Part shown: positions 1 to 11,140 of the stretch, piece after piece
How positions within the stretch are numbered: the stretch's first letter is position 1
How the letters are laid out: each line of letters opens with the position of its first letter
NCBI GenBank assembly: GCA_023150835.1
Contig: JAKLKB010000171.1
Span: 1 to 11,196, forward strand
From: Myxococcota bacterium
Lineage (GTDB): Bacteria; Myxococcota_C; UBA6777
Direction: 5' to 3'
DNA: 11,196 nt
Made by a program: the position numbers and the translations under genes
The notes under the pieces: model-generated
What the model was told of the DNA's origin: nothing
What the model saw: the letters and a program-made list of their open reading frames with translations, nothing else
Databases searched by the model: none

Positions 1-85
1 GAGGGGGCTTGTGTTATGCGGAGGGGGGGGCTTGCGTTATGCGGAGGGGGGATTGTGTTATGTGGAGGAGGGCTTATGTTCGCTG
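1..85. repeat. G-rich tandem repeat, 20-23-nt unit, cut by the window edge
   Basis: Four consecutive units begin with GAGG and share the pattern GAGGGGG-CTTGTGTTATGCG: 1-20, 21-43, 44-64 and a more diverged one at 65-85. Length differences come mainly from the G-run, as expected from slippage. The array probably continues to the left of base 1. It lies at the 3' end of the FmdB-type gene and supplies that gene's stop codon and last eight codons. No function is visible. Confidence 0.8.
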
Positions 86-315
86 CACCAGTCGAGACCG
101 CAGTGATCACTTTGTGGCATGGGGAGGGCGGAAGCTGGGGCAGGATCCGAAGCAAAAGAGGCGACACGAGACGGTGTTGAAAAAGTGGACAGCAGCTTGC
201 TCACATCCTCGGAGCCACAAAACGGGCAAAGGATCTCCGCCATCAGATCACGCGAAGAGAGCAACTGCTCAAAACGCCGTCCACAGGCCGCGCAACCATA
301 CTCGAACAAAGGCAT
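58..315 (-). CDS. FmdB-type zinc-ribbon protein (85 aa)
   Basis: This is a small protein of the FmdB/CxxC_CxxC_SSSS zinc-ribbon family. It opens with MPLFEYGCAACG, the family hallmark of an MP-x-Y/F-E-Y-x-C-x2-C start. A second CPFCG knuckle follows, so C8, C11, C30 and C33 can bind one zinc. The usual Ser/Thr-rich stretch comes next (residues 43-63). Two extra cysteines, C72 and C77, lie near the C-terminus. The family is widespread; the name comes from a regulator suggested for an amidase operon, and most members have no proven function. The start at 315 is supported by a GAGAGG ribosome-binding site about 5 nt upstream. It is the last of four minus-strand genes, 69 nt downstream of the TPR protein. 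The last eight residues (78-85) are encoded by the tandem repeat at the window edge, so the C-terminus may vary between strains. Confidence 0.85.
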   Translation of the reverse strand: MPLFEYGCAACGRRFEQLLSSRDLMAEILCPFCGSEDVSKLLSTFSTPSRVASFASDPAPASALPMPQSDHCGLDWCSEHKPSST

Positions 316-3053: not shown

Positions 3054-3364
3054 AAGCCCATACACCGAGCCTCACAACCACCGACATAAGCCCATACACC
3101 GAGCCTCGCCAACCACCGACATAAGCCCATACACCGAGCCTCACAACCACCGACATAAGCCCATACACCGAGCCTCACAACCACCGACATAAGCCTATCC
3201 ATCGGATCTCGCCAACCACCGACATAAGCCTATCCATCGGACCTCGCCAACCACCGGCACAAGCCCATACACCGAACGATACCCCCCCTCGATCCAAGCC
3301 CATCTACCGACCCAAACGAACGCCCATCCAAGCCCATCTACCGACCCAAACAACCACCCGTTGC
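3054..3364. repeat. Intergenic tandem array, about nine 34-35-nt units
   Basis: Units start with AAGCC. Copies at 3054-3087, 3088-3122, 3123-3156 and 3157-3190 share AAGCCCATACACCGAGCCTC plus an AACCACCGACAT end, with a 1-nt length change at CTCACAACC versus CTCGCCAACC. Copies at 3191-3225 and 3226-3260 are a second variant (AAGCCTATCCATCGG). Copies at 3261-3295, 3296-3329 and 3330 to about 3364 are more diverged (CCATCTACCGACCCAAAC). The ordered variants suggest local duplication followed by drift. The array lies between two divergent genes. Mixed 34/35-nt periods rule out a conserved reading frame, and there are no unique spacers. Confidence 0.9.
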
Positions 3365-3501: not shown

Positions 3502-5652
3502 ATGAGTACAAGGTACAAGATCGACGAACGTACGGCGGTCAACGAACTGAGTCATATCCGCGCATCTGCCATCACCTTGAGTTGCGCCCGCAACATCGCC
3601 CACAACCCAACGATGGACGAACTCTACGAGATGTCCTGCAACCAAGACAGCGCGATCATCACGGATGTACCGATGGCAGATCCCGCCTACGCAGGACTCA
3701 GCCCACAACACAACCGCGTGATCGTCTCTTATAGCGGCCAAGATACGGGCCGTTCATCTTGGGCGCGCTTGATCTGCCCACAGCCTGAAGAGATCCAACG
3801 ACACCCCGAACTTCTCGATACACGCGACCGCATCGAGCGCCTTGTGCGCGAAATGAACATCCAATTGATGCAAAAACAAACCCTCGTTCATACCGAAGTC
3901 TTCTTTGGGAAAAACCATTCTTTCATGGGCAAGATCCACATGATCGTCCCCAAAGAGTACGCCAAACTCGCTCTTGACCTCGGACTCAACTTTATCCGCG
4001 TCACCCCCGAATCGCAAAAGATCTACGACGCCTCCGATGTCCTCAAAATACCCGACCTTTGGCTTGTCTGCCACCCCGAATGGCTCAACCCAAGCTGGCA
4101 AGCATGGCGCAACCGCGTCACCCCCGCCAACCAAGAACAGATCGCCAAAGATCCCGAACCCAAGCGCTTAATGATGGTCTTCGATATCGCCTATTATACG
4201 GCGTATCTGCTCGGCGCTCGCTACTTCGGCGAAGTCAAAAAAGCCTGCCTCACCATGATCTGGGACGCCGCCATCAAAAGCGGTATCGGAATGCCCATAC
4301 ACGGCAGTTCCAAAACGCTCTTCGTCATCCCCCAAAACGCCCCAACCACCGCTCCTTCGTCGATTGACCAAAACACCCCAACCACCGCTCCCTCGCCGAT
4401 TGACCAAAACACCCCAACCACCGCTCCCTCGCCGATTGGCCAAAACACCCCAACCACCGCTCCCTCGCCGATTGGCCAAAACACCCCAACCACCGCTCCC
4501 TCATCGATCGACCAAAACACCCCAACCACCGCTCCCTCGTCGATTGACCAAACAGCCCAAACCACCGCACTTTCCAAGCCACAAGCCGTCACGTTCATCA
4601 CCATCGGCTTGTCTGGCTCGGGCAAGTCCACCATCGGAAACGATCCCCACCACGCCTTCCTCGATCCCCAAAAAGGCGAGTACTCCCGTATCGGCAACGA
4701 TGATGCCCTTGTGATCCTTTACGATAAGAACCTGCGCGATCATGGAACCGTCGGACTCGAAGACGGATGCTACAACAAATCCAACGACTACACTCCCGAT
4801 TCGATGTATCTTCGCACCGTACAATCGGCTGAAAACGTCATGGTCTTTCGCAACGATCAAGGAAAGCTCGATATCTTGCACCAAGATATCCTCAACGGGA
4901 ATGGTCGTGTCCAAACCGCACGCCACCTCTTGTCGGGCGCGGACAGCGATCTCAATACACCCCACCCTGATTACCTTTGCTTGCTGATGAAAGACGAAAC
5001 CCTCCCTCCCGTCGTGCGCATCACCAATTCTCAACTGATGGTTTCGATGTATATGTGCCTCGCAAGCCGCTCCACTTCCGCAGAAAATCTTCCCGTCGAA
5101 CAGATGGGCAAACTGCGCATGATCCCGGGCGCAAACCCCTTCAACACATGGGGCATGCAACAAGAAGCCGAATCGCTCGAAAAACTCGTACAACACCTTG
5201 GCTGCCAAGGTATCGTGATGAACACGGGCAGTTTCTTCATCAACGCCAACAAACAACGTGCTGGACAACTTCGCAAAGTCACCAAAGAGATCTCTCTCTC
5301 TATCTATCCGATGCTTGCGCAAAACAAGATCCGATGGATCGATTGGCCCTACTTCCCCGGTACGCAGATCCCCGCACCCGGCTGCTTTGAAAGCCTCTTC
5401 CCCCTCTTCGATCAGTACTTTCACCCCCTGCGCGTCGAAGACGAACAAGTCTTTTGCGAACTCCTACGCAACCGCCTTCTCGAACGACTTGACTTTCTCC
5501 TTAGCATCAAGATCGATCGCCGTTTTATCTTACCCATCCGAAAAGCCATCATCGAACTCGATTCCTACGAACTCAGCACTCGCGGACCCACCGCACACGT
5601 CGAAAACATCGAAACCTTGCTCGGCACAGGACGAGACAAATCCTCCCTCTAA
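3502..5652 (+). CDS. Divergent ATP-type phosphoenolpyruvate carboxykinase-like protein with repeat insertion (716 aa)
   Basis: The whole protein follows the fold order of ATP-type PEPCK, which converts oxaloacetate and ATP to PEP, CO2 and ADP. Recognisable blocks are TGRSSWARL (R84, matching the substrate-binding Arg of TGRSPKDK); LVHTEVFFGKNHS and LNPSW; GARYFGEVKK (Y241, K246, K247); MPIHGSS (H267, matching the metal-binding His of MHCSAN); the P-loop GLSGSGKST (369-377); IGNDDA (D400, D401); LEDGCYNKS; LPPVVRIT (R506); and NTGS (574). Metal, nucleotide and substrate residues all appear kept, but overall identity to classical PckA is low and the protein is longer than the usual 540 residues. 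It may be a separate PEPCK-related family; DUF4914 is one I would test first, from memory only. Residues 278-361 are a 12-residue repeat array inserted between the two lobes. Start 3502 is chosen over the open frame back to 3409 because it has a ribosome-binding site and the earlier part runs through leader DNA. It converges with the DUF2330-type gene 168 nt away. Confidence 0.82.
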   Translation: MSTRYKIDERTAVNELSHIRASAITLSCARNIAHNPTMDELYEMSCNQDSAIITDVPMADPAYAGLSPQHNRVIVSYSGQDTGRSSWARLICPQPEEIQRHPELLDTRDRIERLVREMNIQLMQKQTLVHTEVFFGKNHSFMGKIHMIVPKEYAKLALDLGLNFIRVTPESQKIYDASDVLKIPDLWLVCHPEWLNPSWQAWRNRVTPANQEQIAKDPEPKRLMMVFDIAYYTAYLLGARYFGEVKKACLTMIWDAAIKSGIGMPIHGSSKTLFVIPQNAPTTAPSSIDQNTPTTAPSPIDQNTPTTAPSPIGQNTPTTAPSPIGQNTPTTAPSSIDQNTPTTAPSSIDQTAQTTALSKPQAVTFITIGLSGSGKSTIGNDPHHAFLDPQKGEYSRIGNDDALVILYDKNLRDHGTVGLEDGCYNKSNDYTPDSMYLRTVQSAENVMVFRNDQGKLDILHQDILNGNGRVQTARHLLSGADSDLNTPHPDYLCLLMKDETLPPVVRITNSQLMVSMYMCLASRSTSAENLPVEQMGKLRMIPGANPFNTWGMQQEAESLEKLVQHLGCQGIVMNTGSFFINANKQRAGQLRKVTKEISLSIYPMLAQNKIRWIDWPYFPGTQIPAPGCFESLFPLFDQYFHPLRVEDEQVFCELLRNRLLERLDFLLSIKIDRRFILPIRKAIIELDSYELSTRGPTAHVENIETLLGTGRDKSSL
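4333..4584 (+). repeat. In-frame 36-nt minisatellite inside the PEPCK-like gene
   Basis: Six near-identical 36-nt units (starting at 4333, 4369, 4405, 4441, 4477 and 4513) and a degenerate seventh (4549-4584) encode QNTPTTAPS(S/P)I(D/G). Units differ at only a few bases and are alike even at third codon positions, so the expansion is recent. The period is a multiple of three, so copy-number change keeps the frame. The peptide is rich in Thr, Pro and Ser and should be an extended flexible linker. Confidence 0.95.
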
Positions 5653-7722: not shown

Positions 7723-8409
7723 TTGAGCTGGTTGACTCGCACTTTTACCTCTTCTGTCGGGAAGAAATTCTTGGCAGGTCTCACCGGCCTCGGTATGTTT
7801 CTGTTCCTTATTGCCCATGTAACGGGCAACTTGACCCTCTTTATGAAGACCAAAGTCGGCCAAGATCCCGCCTTCAACGCCTACGCCAAAAAATTGCATG
7901 ATCTCCCCGGCTTTGCTCTCGCAGAAGCCCTGATCTTGCTCGCTTTTGCCGCACACGTCGTCCTCGTGATCTGGCTGTCTTACACCAACCGCCTCGCTCG
8001 CGGCGAACAACGCTACGCTGAAGTTCGCAGCAAACAAGACCCCCAAAATCAATTGGCCTTGTTCGCAAGCAAAACCACCCTACTCGGCGGCATGATCATC
8101 TTGGTGTTTTTGGTCGTCCACATGGCCGACTTCCGTATGGCGCGCTTCATGGACGGCAACTTGATCACCCAAGCCAAAGTCGTCAGCGCCCTCCAAGTCC
8201 CATGGCGCGCCTTCTTGTACGCGATCGCCAGCCTTCTCGTCGGATGGCACCTCTTCCACGGCATCCAAAGCGGTTTTCGTTCGTTGGGCATGCGTCACCC
8301 CCGATACATGACCTACATCCAAAAATTCGGAGTGATCGCTGCAGTCTTGATCGGCGCATTGTTTGCGTCGATGCCTATCGCGATCTTTGTCGGTTTTATC
8401 ACAAAGTGA
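7723..8409 (+). CDS. sdhC: Succinate dehydrogenase/fumarate reductase cytochrome b558 subunit (228 aa)
   Basis: This is the single membrane anchor of a complex II of the di-haem b type, as in Bacillus SdhC and Wolinella FrdC. It binds two haems b and passes electrons between the iron-sulfur subunit and the quinone. Five hydrophobic helices are visible at about 17-38, 64-86, 118-137, 163-184 and 203-224. Histidines in the first four fit the axial ligands: H32, H78, H133 and H176 (H179 is nearby and could replace H176). The segment GWHLFHGIQSGFRSLG is typical of the b558-type subfamily. Di-haem enzymes of this kind usually work with menaquinone. Translation starts at TTG after a strong ribosome-binding site. 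It is the first gene of sdhCAB, 56 nt before sdhA. The sequence cannot decide between succinate oxidation and fumarate reduction; frdC is the equally valid alternative name. Confidence 0.92.
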   Translation: MSWLTRTFTSSVGKKFLAGLTGLGMFLFLIAHVTGNLTLFMKTKVGQDPAFNAYAKKLHDLPGFALAEALILLAFAAHVVLVIWLSYTNRLARGEQRYAEVRSKQDPQNQLALFASKTTLLGGMIILVFLVVHMADFRMARFMDGNLITQAKVVSALQVPWRAFLYAIASLLVGWHLFHGIQSGFRSLGMRHPRYMTYIQKFGVIAAVLIGALFASMPIAIFVGFITK

Positions 8410-8465
8410 TCTGATGCGCTCCACCATCCACACGCGCACAGAAACAAACACAAGGGTGTTGAGGC

Positions 8466-10379
8466 ATGATCCTAGATCCAAGAACTCCAAGCGGCCCTCT
8501 CGATCAACGTTGGGCCAAAGCCAAAGAAGAAATGCGTCTCGTTGGACCCATCAACCGACGCAAATTCAAAGTCATCATCGTCGGAACCGGACTCGCCGGA
8601 GCTTCCGCTGCCGCCTCCTTGGGACAACAAGGCTACGATGTCCACTGCTTTACTTTCCACGATAGCCCTCGCCGCGCTCACAGTATCGCCGCACAAGGCG
8701 GTATCAACGCCGCCAAAAACTACCAAAACGACGGCGATAGCACGTGGCGTCTGTTCTACGACACCATCAAAGGCGGCGACTTCCGCGCCCGTGAGTCCAA
8801 CGTCTACCGCCTCGCTCAAAACAGCACCAACATCATCGACCAATGTGTCGCTCAAGGCGTCCCTTTTGCCCGTGAATACGGCGGAACCTTGGCCAACCGC
8901 ACCTTCGGCGGCGTCCTCGTCTCCCGTACCTTCTATGCTCGCGGTCAAACAGGACAACAACTCCTCCTCGGCGCTTACAGCAGCTTGATGCGCGAAGTCC
9001 ACGAACAACGCGTCAAACTCTACACCCGCCACGAGATGCACGACCTGATCGTCAAAGACGGCGTCGCCCAAGGCATCGTCACCCGCAACCTCATGACGGG
9101 CGAAGTCGAAGCTCACACCGCGCACGCTGTCCTCCTTTGCACGGGCGGTTACACCAACGTCTATTATCTCTCCACCACCGCTATGGCCTCCAACGTCTCG
9201 GCAACTTGGCGTGCCTACAAACGCGGCGCTTACTTTGGCAACCCTTGCTACGTCCAGATCCACCCGACTTGTATCCCTGTCTCTGGACACTACCAATCCA
9301 AACTCACCCTCATGAGCGAAAGTCTCCGTAACGTCGGACGCATCTGGGTCCCCCGTACTCCCGGGGACAAACGCCATCCCAACGACATCCCCGAAGCCGA
9401 GCGCATCTACTTCCTCGAAGAACGCTATCCCACCTACTCCAACATGGTCCCCCGTGACGTCGCCTCCCGCAACTGCAAAGAATACTGCGACAAAGGCCAC
9501 GGCGTCGGGGCCAGCGGCGACTCCGTTTACCTCGACTTCCGCGAAGCCATCGCCAAAGAAGGCGAACCCACCATCCGCTCCAAATACGGCAACCTCTTCG
9601 ATATGTACCACAAGATCATGGGCGAAGATCCTTACAAACAACCCATGAAGATCTATCCCGGACCCCACTACGTCATGGGGGGCCTCTGGGTCGACTATCA
9701 CCTCATGTCCAATATCCCCGGACTCTTCGTCCTCGGCGAAGCCAACTTCTCCGATCACGGTGCCAACCGCCTCGGCGCAAGCGCACTCATGCAAGGTCTC
9801 TCTGATGGATACTTTGTCGCCCCCTACACCGTCAGCAACTACCTCGCAAACAAAATGAACACACTACCCCTCTCCACTTCCGACGACGCTTGCAAACAAG
9901 CCATCGACGACACCCGCAACCTCATCGATCGCTTCCTCAAAGCCAAAGGAAACCAGTCCTCCGAAAGTTTCCATCGTCGCCTCGGTAAAATCCTCTTCGA
10001 CAAAGTCGGCATCAGCCGCACCAAACAAGGACTCCAAGAAGCCATCAAAGAGATCCAAGATCTTCGCGAAGACTTCTGGAACAATGTCCGCGTCCCCGGT
10101 GATGCAAGCTATGTCAACCAAGAACTCGAAAAAGCGGGCCGTATCATCGACTTTATCGAATTTGGTGAGCTCATGGCCCGTGACGCCCTCCACCGCGAAG
10201 AATCTTGCGGCGGACACTTCCGCGCTGAACACCAGATCGACGGAGAAGCCAAACGCGACGATGACAACTTCGCCTACGCTGCCGCTTGGCAATTCAACGG
10301 CCTCGACAAAGAACCCACCGTCCACAAAGACGAACTGAAGTTCGAGTCCGTGAAGTTGACACAAAGGAGCTACAAGTAA
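8466..10379 (+). CDS. sdhA: Succinate dehydrogenase/fumarate reductase flavoprotein subunit (637 aa)
   Basis: The catalytic subunit of complex II interconverts succinate and fumarate using covalently bound FAD. The dinucleotide-binding motif GTGLAG is at 40-45. H72 in [11 protein letters not shown] is the expected covalent FAD attachment site. Active-site residues match the family: H266 (HPT), R330 (PRDVASR, the catalytic proton-transfer Arg), H401 (HYVMGG) and R435 ([10 protein letters not shown]). The N-terminal extension with GPLDQRW and the overall length resemble the subfamily that accompanies b558-type anchors. An AAGGGTG site lies 7 nt before the ATG. The stop codon overlaps the sdhB start in TAATG, so the two are translationally coupled. 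Codons prefer C at the third position. frdA is the alternative name. Confidence 0.95.
10363..10369 (+). promoter_or_regulatory. sdhB ribosome-binding site inside the end of sdhA
   Basis: AAAGGAG lies 9 nt before the ATG at 10379 and within the last codons of sdhA. With the TAATG overlap it fixes the sdhB start and excludes the open frame back to 10286. Confidence 0.8.
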
Positions 10380-11140
10380 TGTCCAACAGCATCAAGCTGA
10401 CGCTCAATATCTGGCGACAAGCCAATCGCCACGCCAAAGGTCGCTTCGAAACCTACCAACCCAAGGACCTTACCACCGATATGTCCATCCTTGAGATGCT
10501 CGATTGTCTCAACGATGAACTGATCGCCGCTGGCAAAGAACCCGTCACCTTTGAACACGATTGCCGCGAAGGCATCTGCGGAACCTGCGGCATCATGATC
10601 AACGGCATGGCTCATGGTCCCGACCGTGGCACCACCACCTGCCAACTTTACCTCCGCCGCTTCAAAGACGGTGACACCCTTGTCCTCGAACCTTGGCGCG
10701 CCAAAGCCTTCCCCGTGATCAAAGATCTGCTTGTCGACCGCTCCGCCTTTGACCGCATCCAGATGGCGGGTGGTTACATCTCCGTCAACGTCGGAAACGC
10801 TCCCGAAGCCAACTCCATCCTCATCCCCAAAGATGTCGCCCTCGAAGCCTTCGATGCCGCCGTCTGCATCGGCTGTGGCGCTTGCGTCGCCGCCTGCAAA
10901 AACGCCTCCGCCATGCTCTTTGTCTCCGCAAAAGTCGGACACCTCTCCCTCATGCCCCAAGGACACCCCGAACGCCACGACCGCGCCCTCAATATGATCG
11001 CTCAAATGGACGCCGAAGGCTTCGGTTCTTGCACCAATACCCTCGAATGTTCCGCCGCTTGCCCCAAAGAGATATCCCCCAAATGGATCCAACGCCTCAA
11101 CGGCGAATACATCCAAGCCGCCGCTGTCACCCGCCGTTAA
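10379..11140 (+). CDS. sdhB: Succinate dehydrogenase/fumarate reductase iron-sulfur subunit (253 aa)
   Basis: This subunit carries electrons between the flavoprotein and the cytochrome b through three clusters. C62, C67, C70 and C88 (CREGICGTC, then TTTC) hold the [2Fe-2S] cluster with four cysteine ligands. C163, C166 and C169 (CIGCGAC) with C228 bind [4Fe-4S]. C173, C218 and C224 bind [3Fe-4S]. The arrangement matches Wolinella FrdB and other menaquinone-linked enzymes. Length is normal. The start ATG overlaps the sdhA stop. It is the last gene of the operon; a C/T-rich tandem repeat follows within a few bases and no terminator hairpin is seen before the window ends. frdB is the alternative name. 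Confidence 0.95.

Follow-up and report, generated by a model that had tools for sequence, protein, structure and literature searches.

Organization of the locus

The window, that is the whole stretch of 11,196 nt analysed here, carries on its forward strand a gene for an ATP-type PEPCK-like enzyme, with a tandem array of 36-nt units lying in frame inside its ORF. PEP carboxykinase (PEPCK) acts in gluconeogenesis, and the bacterium in question is uncultured. The features considered below are as follows:

3054..3275, no strand assigned: second minisatellite, 35/69-nt unit, intergenic, 5′ of the PEPCK gene (Tandem Repeats Finder (TRF); comparison with the sister species)
3502..5652, + strand: CDS of a 716-aa ATP-type PEPCK-like enzyme (PF01293 match, fold match, conserved catalytic residues, dN/dS)
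4300..4302, + strand: codon of the metal-site His267 (E. coli H232), a column invariant in 25 sequences
4303..4326, + strand: hairpin strand 1, residues 268-275 (DSSP on the AlphaFold model; also in an array-free relative)
4333..4584, + strand: 36-nt coding minisatellite, six near-identical 12-aa units and a degenerate seventh (TRF, unit listing)
4582..4605, + strand: hairpin strand 2, residues 361-368, running into the P-loop (DSSP on the AlphaFold model; also in the relative)
4606..4629, + strand: P-loop GLSGSGKS, residues 369-376 (alignment conservation)

The array at 3054-3275 occupies the divergent intergenic region between an IscA-like gene and the PEPCK gene, and counts about one unit in the sister species; two arrays within 1.5 kb (3054-3275 and 4333-4584) thus differ between the two species. 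The contig end (3-80) carries an array of 21-23-nt units, which adjoins an ORF for an FmdB-type zinc-ribbon protein (58-315, minus strand) and is found in the sister as well. Downstream of the PEPCK gene, 7786-11140 carries fumarate reductase/succinate dehydrogenase genes (cytochrome b558-type C, A and B). This linkage was observed in the sister species only; a conserved PEPCK/fumarate-reductase neighbourhood is ruled out, since no such neighbours occur in the flanks (about 5 kb or more) of the gene in the more distant relatives.

A divergent ATP-type PEPCK

The ORF of 716 codons starts with an ATG at 3502 and runs uninterrupted through the array. Its product matches the PF01293 (PEPCK_ATP) profile with 69.9 bits, above the curated cut-off of 26.5. 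The closest NCBIfam model, NF006821, gave 129 bits, under its cut-off of 369, and the pckA equivalog TIGR00224 gave 40.9 bits against the 590 required. An AlphaFold model built from an input of 24 sequences (mean pLDDT 81.6, core mostly 85-97) had ATP-PEPCKs as its best solved matches by VIA, with Z 31.9 to Thermus ATP-PEPCK 2pc9 (rmsd 2.8 over 480 residues), about 28 to E. coli Pck and about 25 to GTP-PEPCKs.

In the alignment, R65, Y207, K212, K213, H232, S250, K254, D268, D269 and R333 of E. coli are kept. E. coli T255 is replaced by Ser, which we counted as conservation of the catalytic set, and the position of R449 aligns to Lys, in a weakly aligned region. The enzyme therefore shares with E. 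coli Pck and Thermus 2pc9 the fold, the P-loop, the metal-site Lys/His/Asp and the substrate Arg. It differs from them by an identity of only about 17-21% over structural alignments, by scores far under the TIGR00224 and other NCBIfam cut-offs, and by a hairpin turn ahead of the P-loop that is larger by about 86 residues. By its profile scores it belongs to a divergent subfamily outside the classic pckA equivalog, and it is probably enzymatically active.

No second ATP-PEPCK and no GTP-PEPCK was found in the same genome, which speaks against a backup by another PEPCK. PPDK_N-family enzymes are encoded there, so that PEPCK may not be the only route to PEP.

The 36-nt array is real and local

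TRF reported the array at 4332-4568 (period 36, 6.6 copies, 93% matches, no indels, score 388). In codon phase, six units at 4333-4548 follow the pattern QN[A/T]PTTAPS[S/P]I[D/G] and are followed by the degenerate seventh, QTAQTTALSKPQ (4549-4584). Both the coordinates and the count of six near-perfect units and a degenerate seventh, as given by the sequence-only reading, were correct. With 6.6 copies of 36 nt, the array falls within the definition of a coding minisatellite (units of 10-200 nt, at least four copies, regular length). It is not a chance repeat, because in 1000 codon shuffles of the PEPCK CDS the TRF score never exceeded 65. Elsewhere in the genome the unit has just two matches, each with 3 mismatches; it is therefore local, and a mobile repeat is ruled out.

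One could suspect an assembly artefact, or a PEPCK gene decaying as a pseudogene. The copy number indeed comes from a fragmented draft (239 contigs) and the exact count could be off, since short-read assemblies can misstate repeat number. However, imperfect unit variants mark separate copies, and the independent assembly of the sister species has two diverged units in the corresponding position. The frame is fully open, the catalytic residues are intact and, with the array excluded, comparison with the sister gene gave dS 0.226, dN 0.013 and dN/dS 0.058. We regard either form of this explanation as extremely improbable.

Length and composition of the site in relatives

A PEPCK-like enzyme is encoded in all five genomes of the phylum that were compared. 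The sister species, collinear and with about 94.5% DNA identity (94-95%), is exactly 180 nt, or five units, shorter at the array site, where one full and one partial diverged unit remain. The copy number of the array thus varies by whole units, at the level of species, as expected from the earlier proposal that a 36-nt period allows change without breaking the frame.

Units 3 and 4 are identical, and the mean synonymous difference is about 0.10 among units 1-6 compared to about 0.20 between the PEPCK genes of the two species, as estimated over few sites. The recent expansion proposed from the sequence alone is in line with these values, and the expansion or homogenisation of the array looks recent, subsequent to the species split. 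Since there is one close relative only, the choice between expansion in this species and contraction in the other rests mainly on unit homogeneity, for which gene conversion could be an alternative source.

In the three more distant genomes the linkers are unrelated, with 31 (short), 61 (acidic) and 62 (Lys-rich) residues from the metal-site His to the P-loop, and a paralog among them has 25. Across the phylum this distance ranges from 25 to 102 residues, without relationship in linker sequence or composition, and it exceeds that of E. coli in 5/5 genomes (at least 25 residues). Unrelated linkers between conserved flanks imply that the linker can change freely in length and in composition.

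The array enlarges the tip of a hairpin

As had been noticed from the sequence, the in-frame array lies just ahead of the P-loop, between H267 (MPIHGSS) and G369 (GLSGSGKST). The spacing of these residues is 102, compared to 16 in E. coli Pck (H232 to G248) and 16-28 in relatives outside the phylum. In the AlphaFold model, residues 282-354 of the array are disordered (pLDDT about 30) and the flanking strands are confident. In the model the array thus leaves the core as a surface loop, a point that the sequence-only reading had proposed to check; usually only a few residues long, this loop has grown here to about 80. In the model of an array-free relative (L038), a turn of ten residues (pLDDT about 78-90) connects the matching strands, 267-276 and 287-296.

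The array had been described as lying between the two lobes of the enzyme. This placement is not compatible with published domain limits. In PEPCK from Mtb, residues 242-309 include the P-loop (269-277) and belong to the C-terminal nucleotide-binding domain (PMC4370629), and residues 260-325 of mammalian PEPCK form nucleotide-binding domain 1 (PMC4373879). Since the metal-site His and the P-loop belong to one nucleotide-binding domain in the solved enzymes, the array segment falls within one lobe. These limits, together with the hairpin seen in both models, rule out an inter-lobe linker. According to the models, the array is rather a greatly enlarged β-hairpin tip inside the nucleotide-binding lobe. 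This tip is expected to face away from the catalytic cleft, because the other ends of both strands are at the active site.

The sequence-only reading had also suggested that the length of the array might vary between strains and possibly tune domain closure. In a wider form of this idea, the array would be an adaptive linker of variable length, tuning domain closure or catalysis. Its position between two active-site elements and its variation by whole units with the frame kept would suit such a device. Nevertheless, both elements share one lobe. The hairpin that carries the insertion at its tip has strands that begin and end at the active site, and this tip should therefore face away from the cleft. 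Moreover, relatives carry unrelated linkers at the site and arrays of like kind occur in unrelated genes (see below). Closure tuning is thus unsupported and, in our view, very unlikely.

Tandem arrays across the genome

Tandem arrays with a period of at least 10 were surveyed in 0.69 Mb, about 9% of the genome, with ORFs called by length only (at least 120 codons). The sample contained 200 arrays, that is 288/Mb or 3.1% of the bases. Densities were 272/Mb in the sister species, 131 and 174/Mb in two other phylum members, and 17-150/Mb in small samples of other phyla (G032, which had no readable bases, was left out).

For arrays of at least four copies, we obtained 56/Mb with TRF, 40/Mb at 90% matches, and 71/Mb with a home-made imitation of the program used in a survey of 119 bacteria, where the maximum among tabulated satellite-rich bacterial replicons was 23/Mb (PMC6749651). 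The control sample G056 gave 33-50/Mb, from two or three arrays only. The arrays resemble the prokaryotic coding satellites of that survey (Subirana and Messeguer 2019, PMC6749651) in having units of 10-200 nt that are unrelated to one another, mostly have lengths divisible by three and encode amino-acid repeats. They differ in density (40-71/Mb against 23/Mb at most, a rough comparison given the different program and partial samples) and in that some lie inside core enzyme domains. If this density holds genome-wide, the lineage would be among the most minisatellite-rich bacteria described. Nothing relevant was found in the literature on repeats in related lineages.

Periods divisible by three were found for 124 of 138 arrays in ORFs (90%) compared to 16 of 35 outside (46%; Fisher p 7e-8). 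Arrays were present in 23% of the ORFs (104/450), and their translations are enriched in P, T, A, S and K and depleted in L, F, Y, I and W. Where flanks were found in the other species' sample, length differed between this genome and the sister for 7 of 11 arrays, in each direction, showing that length change is common. A match to MutS_I is present in 5/5 phylum genomes, which speaks against the idea that the repeats are unstable because MutS has been lost; small loops would, besides, be the expected target of MutS.

Most of the large arrays that were checked fall outside Pfam domains or in the stretches between them. Others interrupt or border such domains, as judged by Pfam spans: the MnmE G domain, a UvrD-like helicase, an NFACT N-terminal region, an HlyD barrel-sandwich and DUF455. 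In MnmE (L064:6082-7887, minus strand), an array of 4.3 copies of 48 nt directly follows the G3 motif DSAGLR, by switch II, and 110 residues separate this site from the next conserved motif, IGVER. The insertion is shorter in the sister species, and the corresponding segments are much shorter in the other phylum genomes. As in PEPCK, an in-frame array thus occupies a core loop of a P-loop NTPase and differs in length in the sister; the enzyme and the unit sequence differ, and so does the location, by switch II in MnmE and before the P-loop in PEPCK.

Origin and role of the PEPCK loop

Taken together, we consider it highly probable that the array is a coding minisatellite grown by slippage or recombination and tolerated in a surface loop, under selection for frame and fold, in a PEPCK gene that is otherwise normal and selectively maintained. 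Replication slippage or unequal recombination would enlarge the array in the hairpin turn between the metal-binding His and the P-loop. The 36-nt period would allow whole units to be gained or lost without frameshift, and selection would purge arrays that are out of frame or break the fold. The hairpin tip, already lengthened in the lineage, was probably a permissive site. Formation and expansion of minisatellites throughout the genome would likewise place arrays in loops of other core enzymes. Similar expansions in many genes, core enzymes included, point to a genome-wide habit rather than a control device specific to PEPCK, and we infer that the PEPCK loop is mostly a passive, tolerated disordered insertion.

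Alternatively, the Thr/Pro/Ser arm may be a low-complexity region selected for interaction, solubility, phosphorylation or clustering, and not for closure. All phylum members have a non-standard, mostly polar linker at the site, and the composition of the array promotes disorder. This composition is, however, not conserved (T/P/S, acidic or Lys-rich), one phylum member has only about 15 extra residues and the paralog fewer, and similar arrays occur in many unrelated proteins. Such an arm seems unlikely to us. More generally, a selected role of a long disordered loop at the PEPCK site is possible because all phylum members carry extra residues there; the shifting composition of the linker speaks against a role that is sequence-specific.

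In bacteria, the most familiar coding repeats are those of surface and secreted proteins. Here, coding repeats lie inside folded catalytic domains of central enzymes, with lengths that differ between sister species. The array-bearing enzymes offer a natural series for how much disorder an enzyme core tolerates and, if their density is genome-wide, the lineage would be a candidate system for the origin of repeats and their filtering by selection. A broader and rather unlikely scenario is that this small candidate phylum decorates housekeeping cores with length-variable disordered loops of selected role, through pervasive in-frame minisatellite growth. The enzymes concerned would be PEPCK and MnmE, and perhaps the UvrD-like helicase and the NFACT/RqcH-like protein; if true, this would mirror, in bacteria, the low-complexity insertions found in proteins of Plasmodium and Dictyostelium.

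Other array-bearing reading frames

Additional configurations were observed in the same genome. In-frame arrays interrupt or border the Pfam matches of the NFACT/RqcH-like ORF (L106:867-2888) and the UvrD-like helicase ORF (L080:5946-10133). An NAD-epimerase domain and a short-chain dehydrogenase are encoded in one ORF (L118:16852-19029, minus strand) with an array of 4.2 copies of 39 nt at the junction. Finally, a single ORF (L115:1157-3520, plus strand) combines NadC (quinolinate phosphoribosyltransferase) with a FHIPEP-family C-terminal domain, three copies of a 48-nt unit lying between them. The two parts also form a single frame in the sister species (871 aa) and NadC stands alone in other genera (320-335 aa), a distribution that suggests a genus-specific fusion with the minisatellite as bridge.
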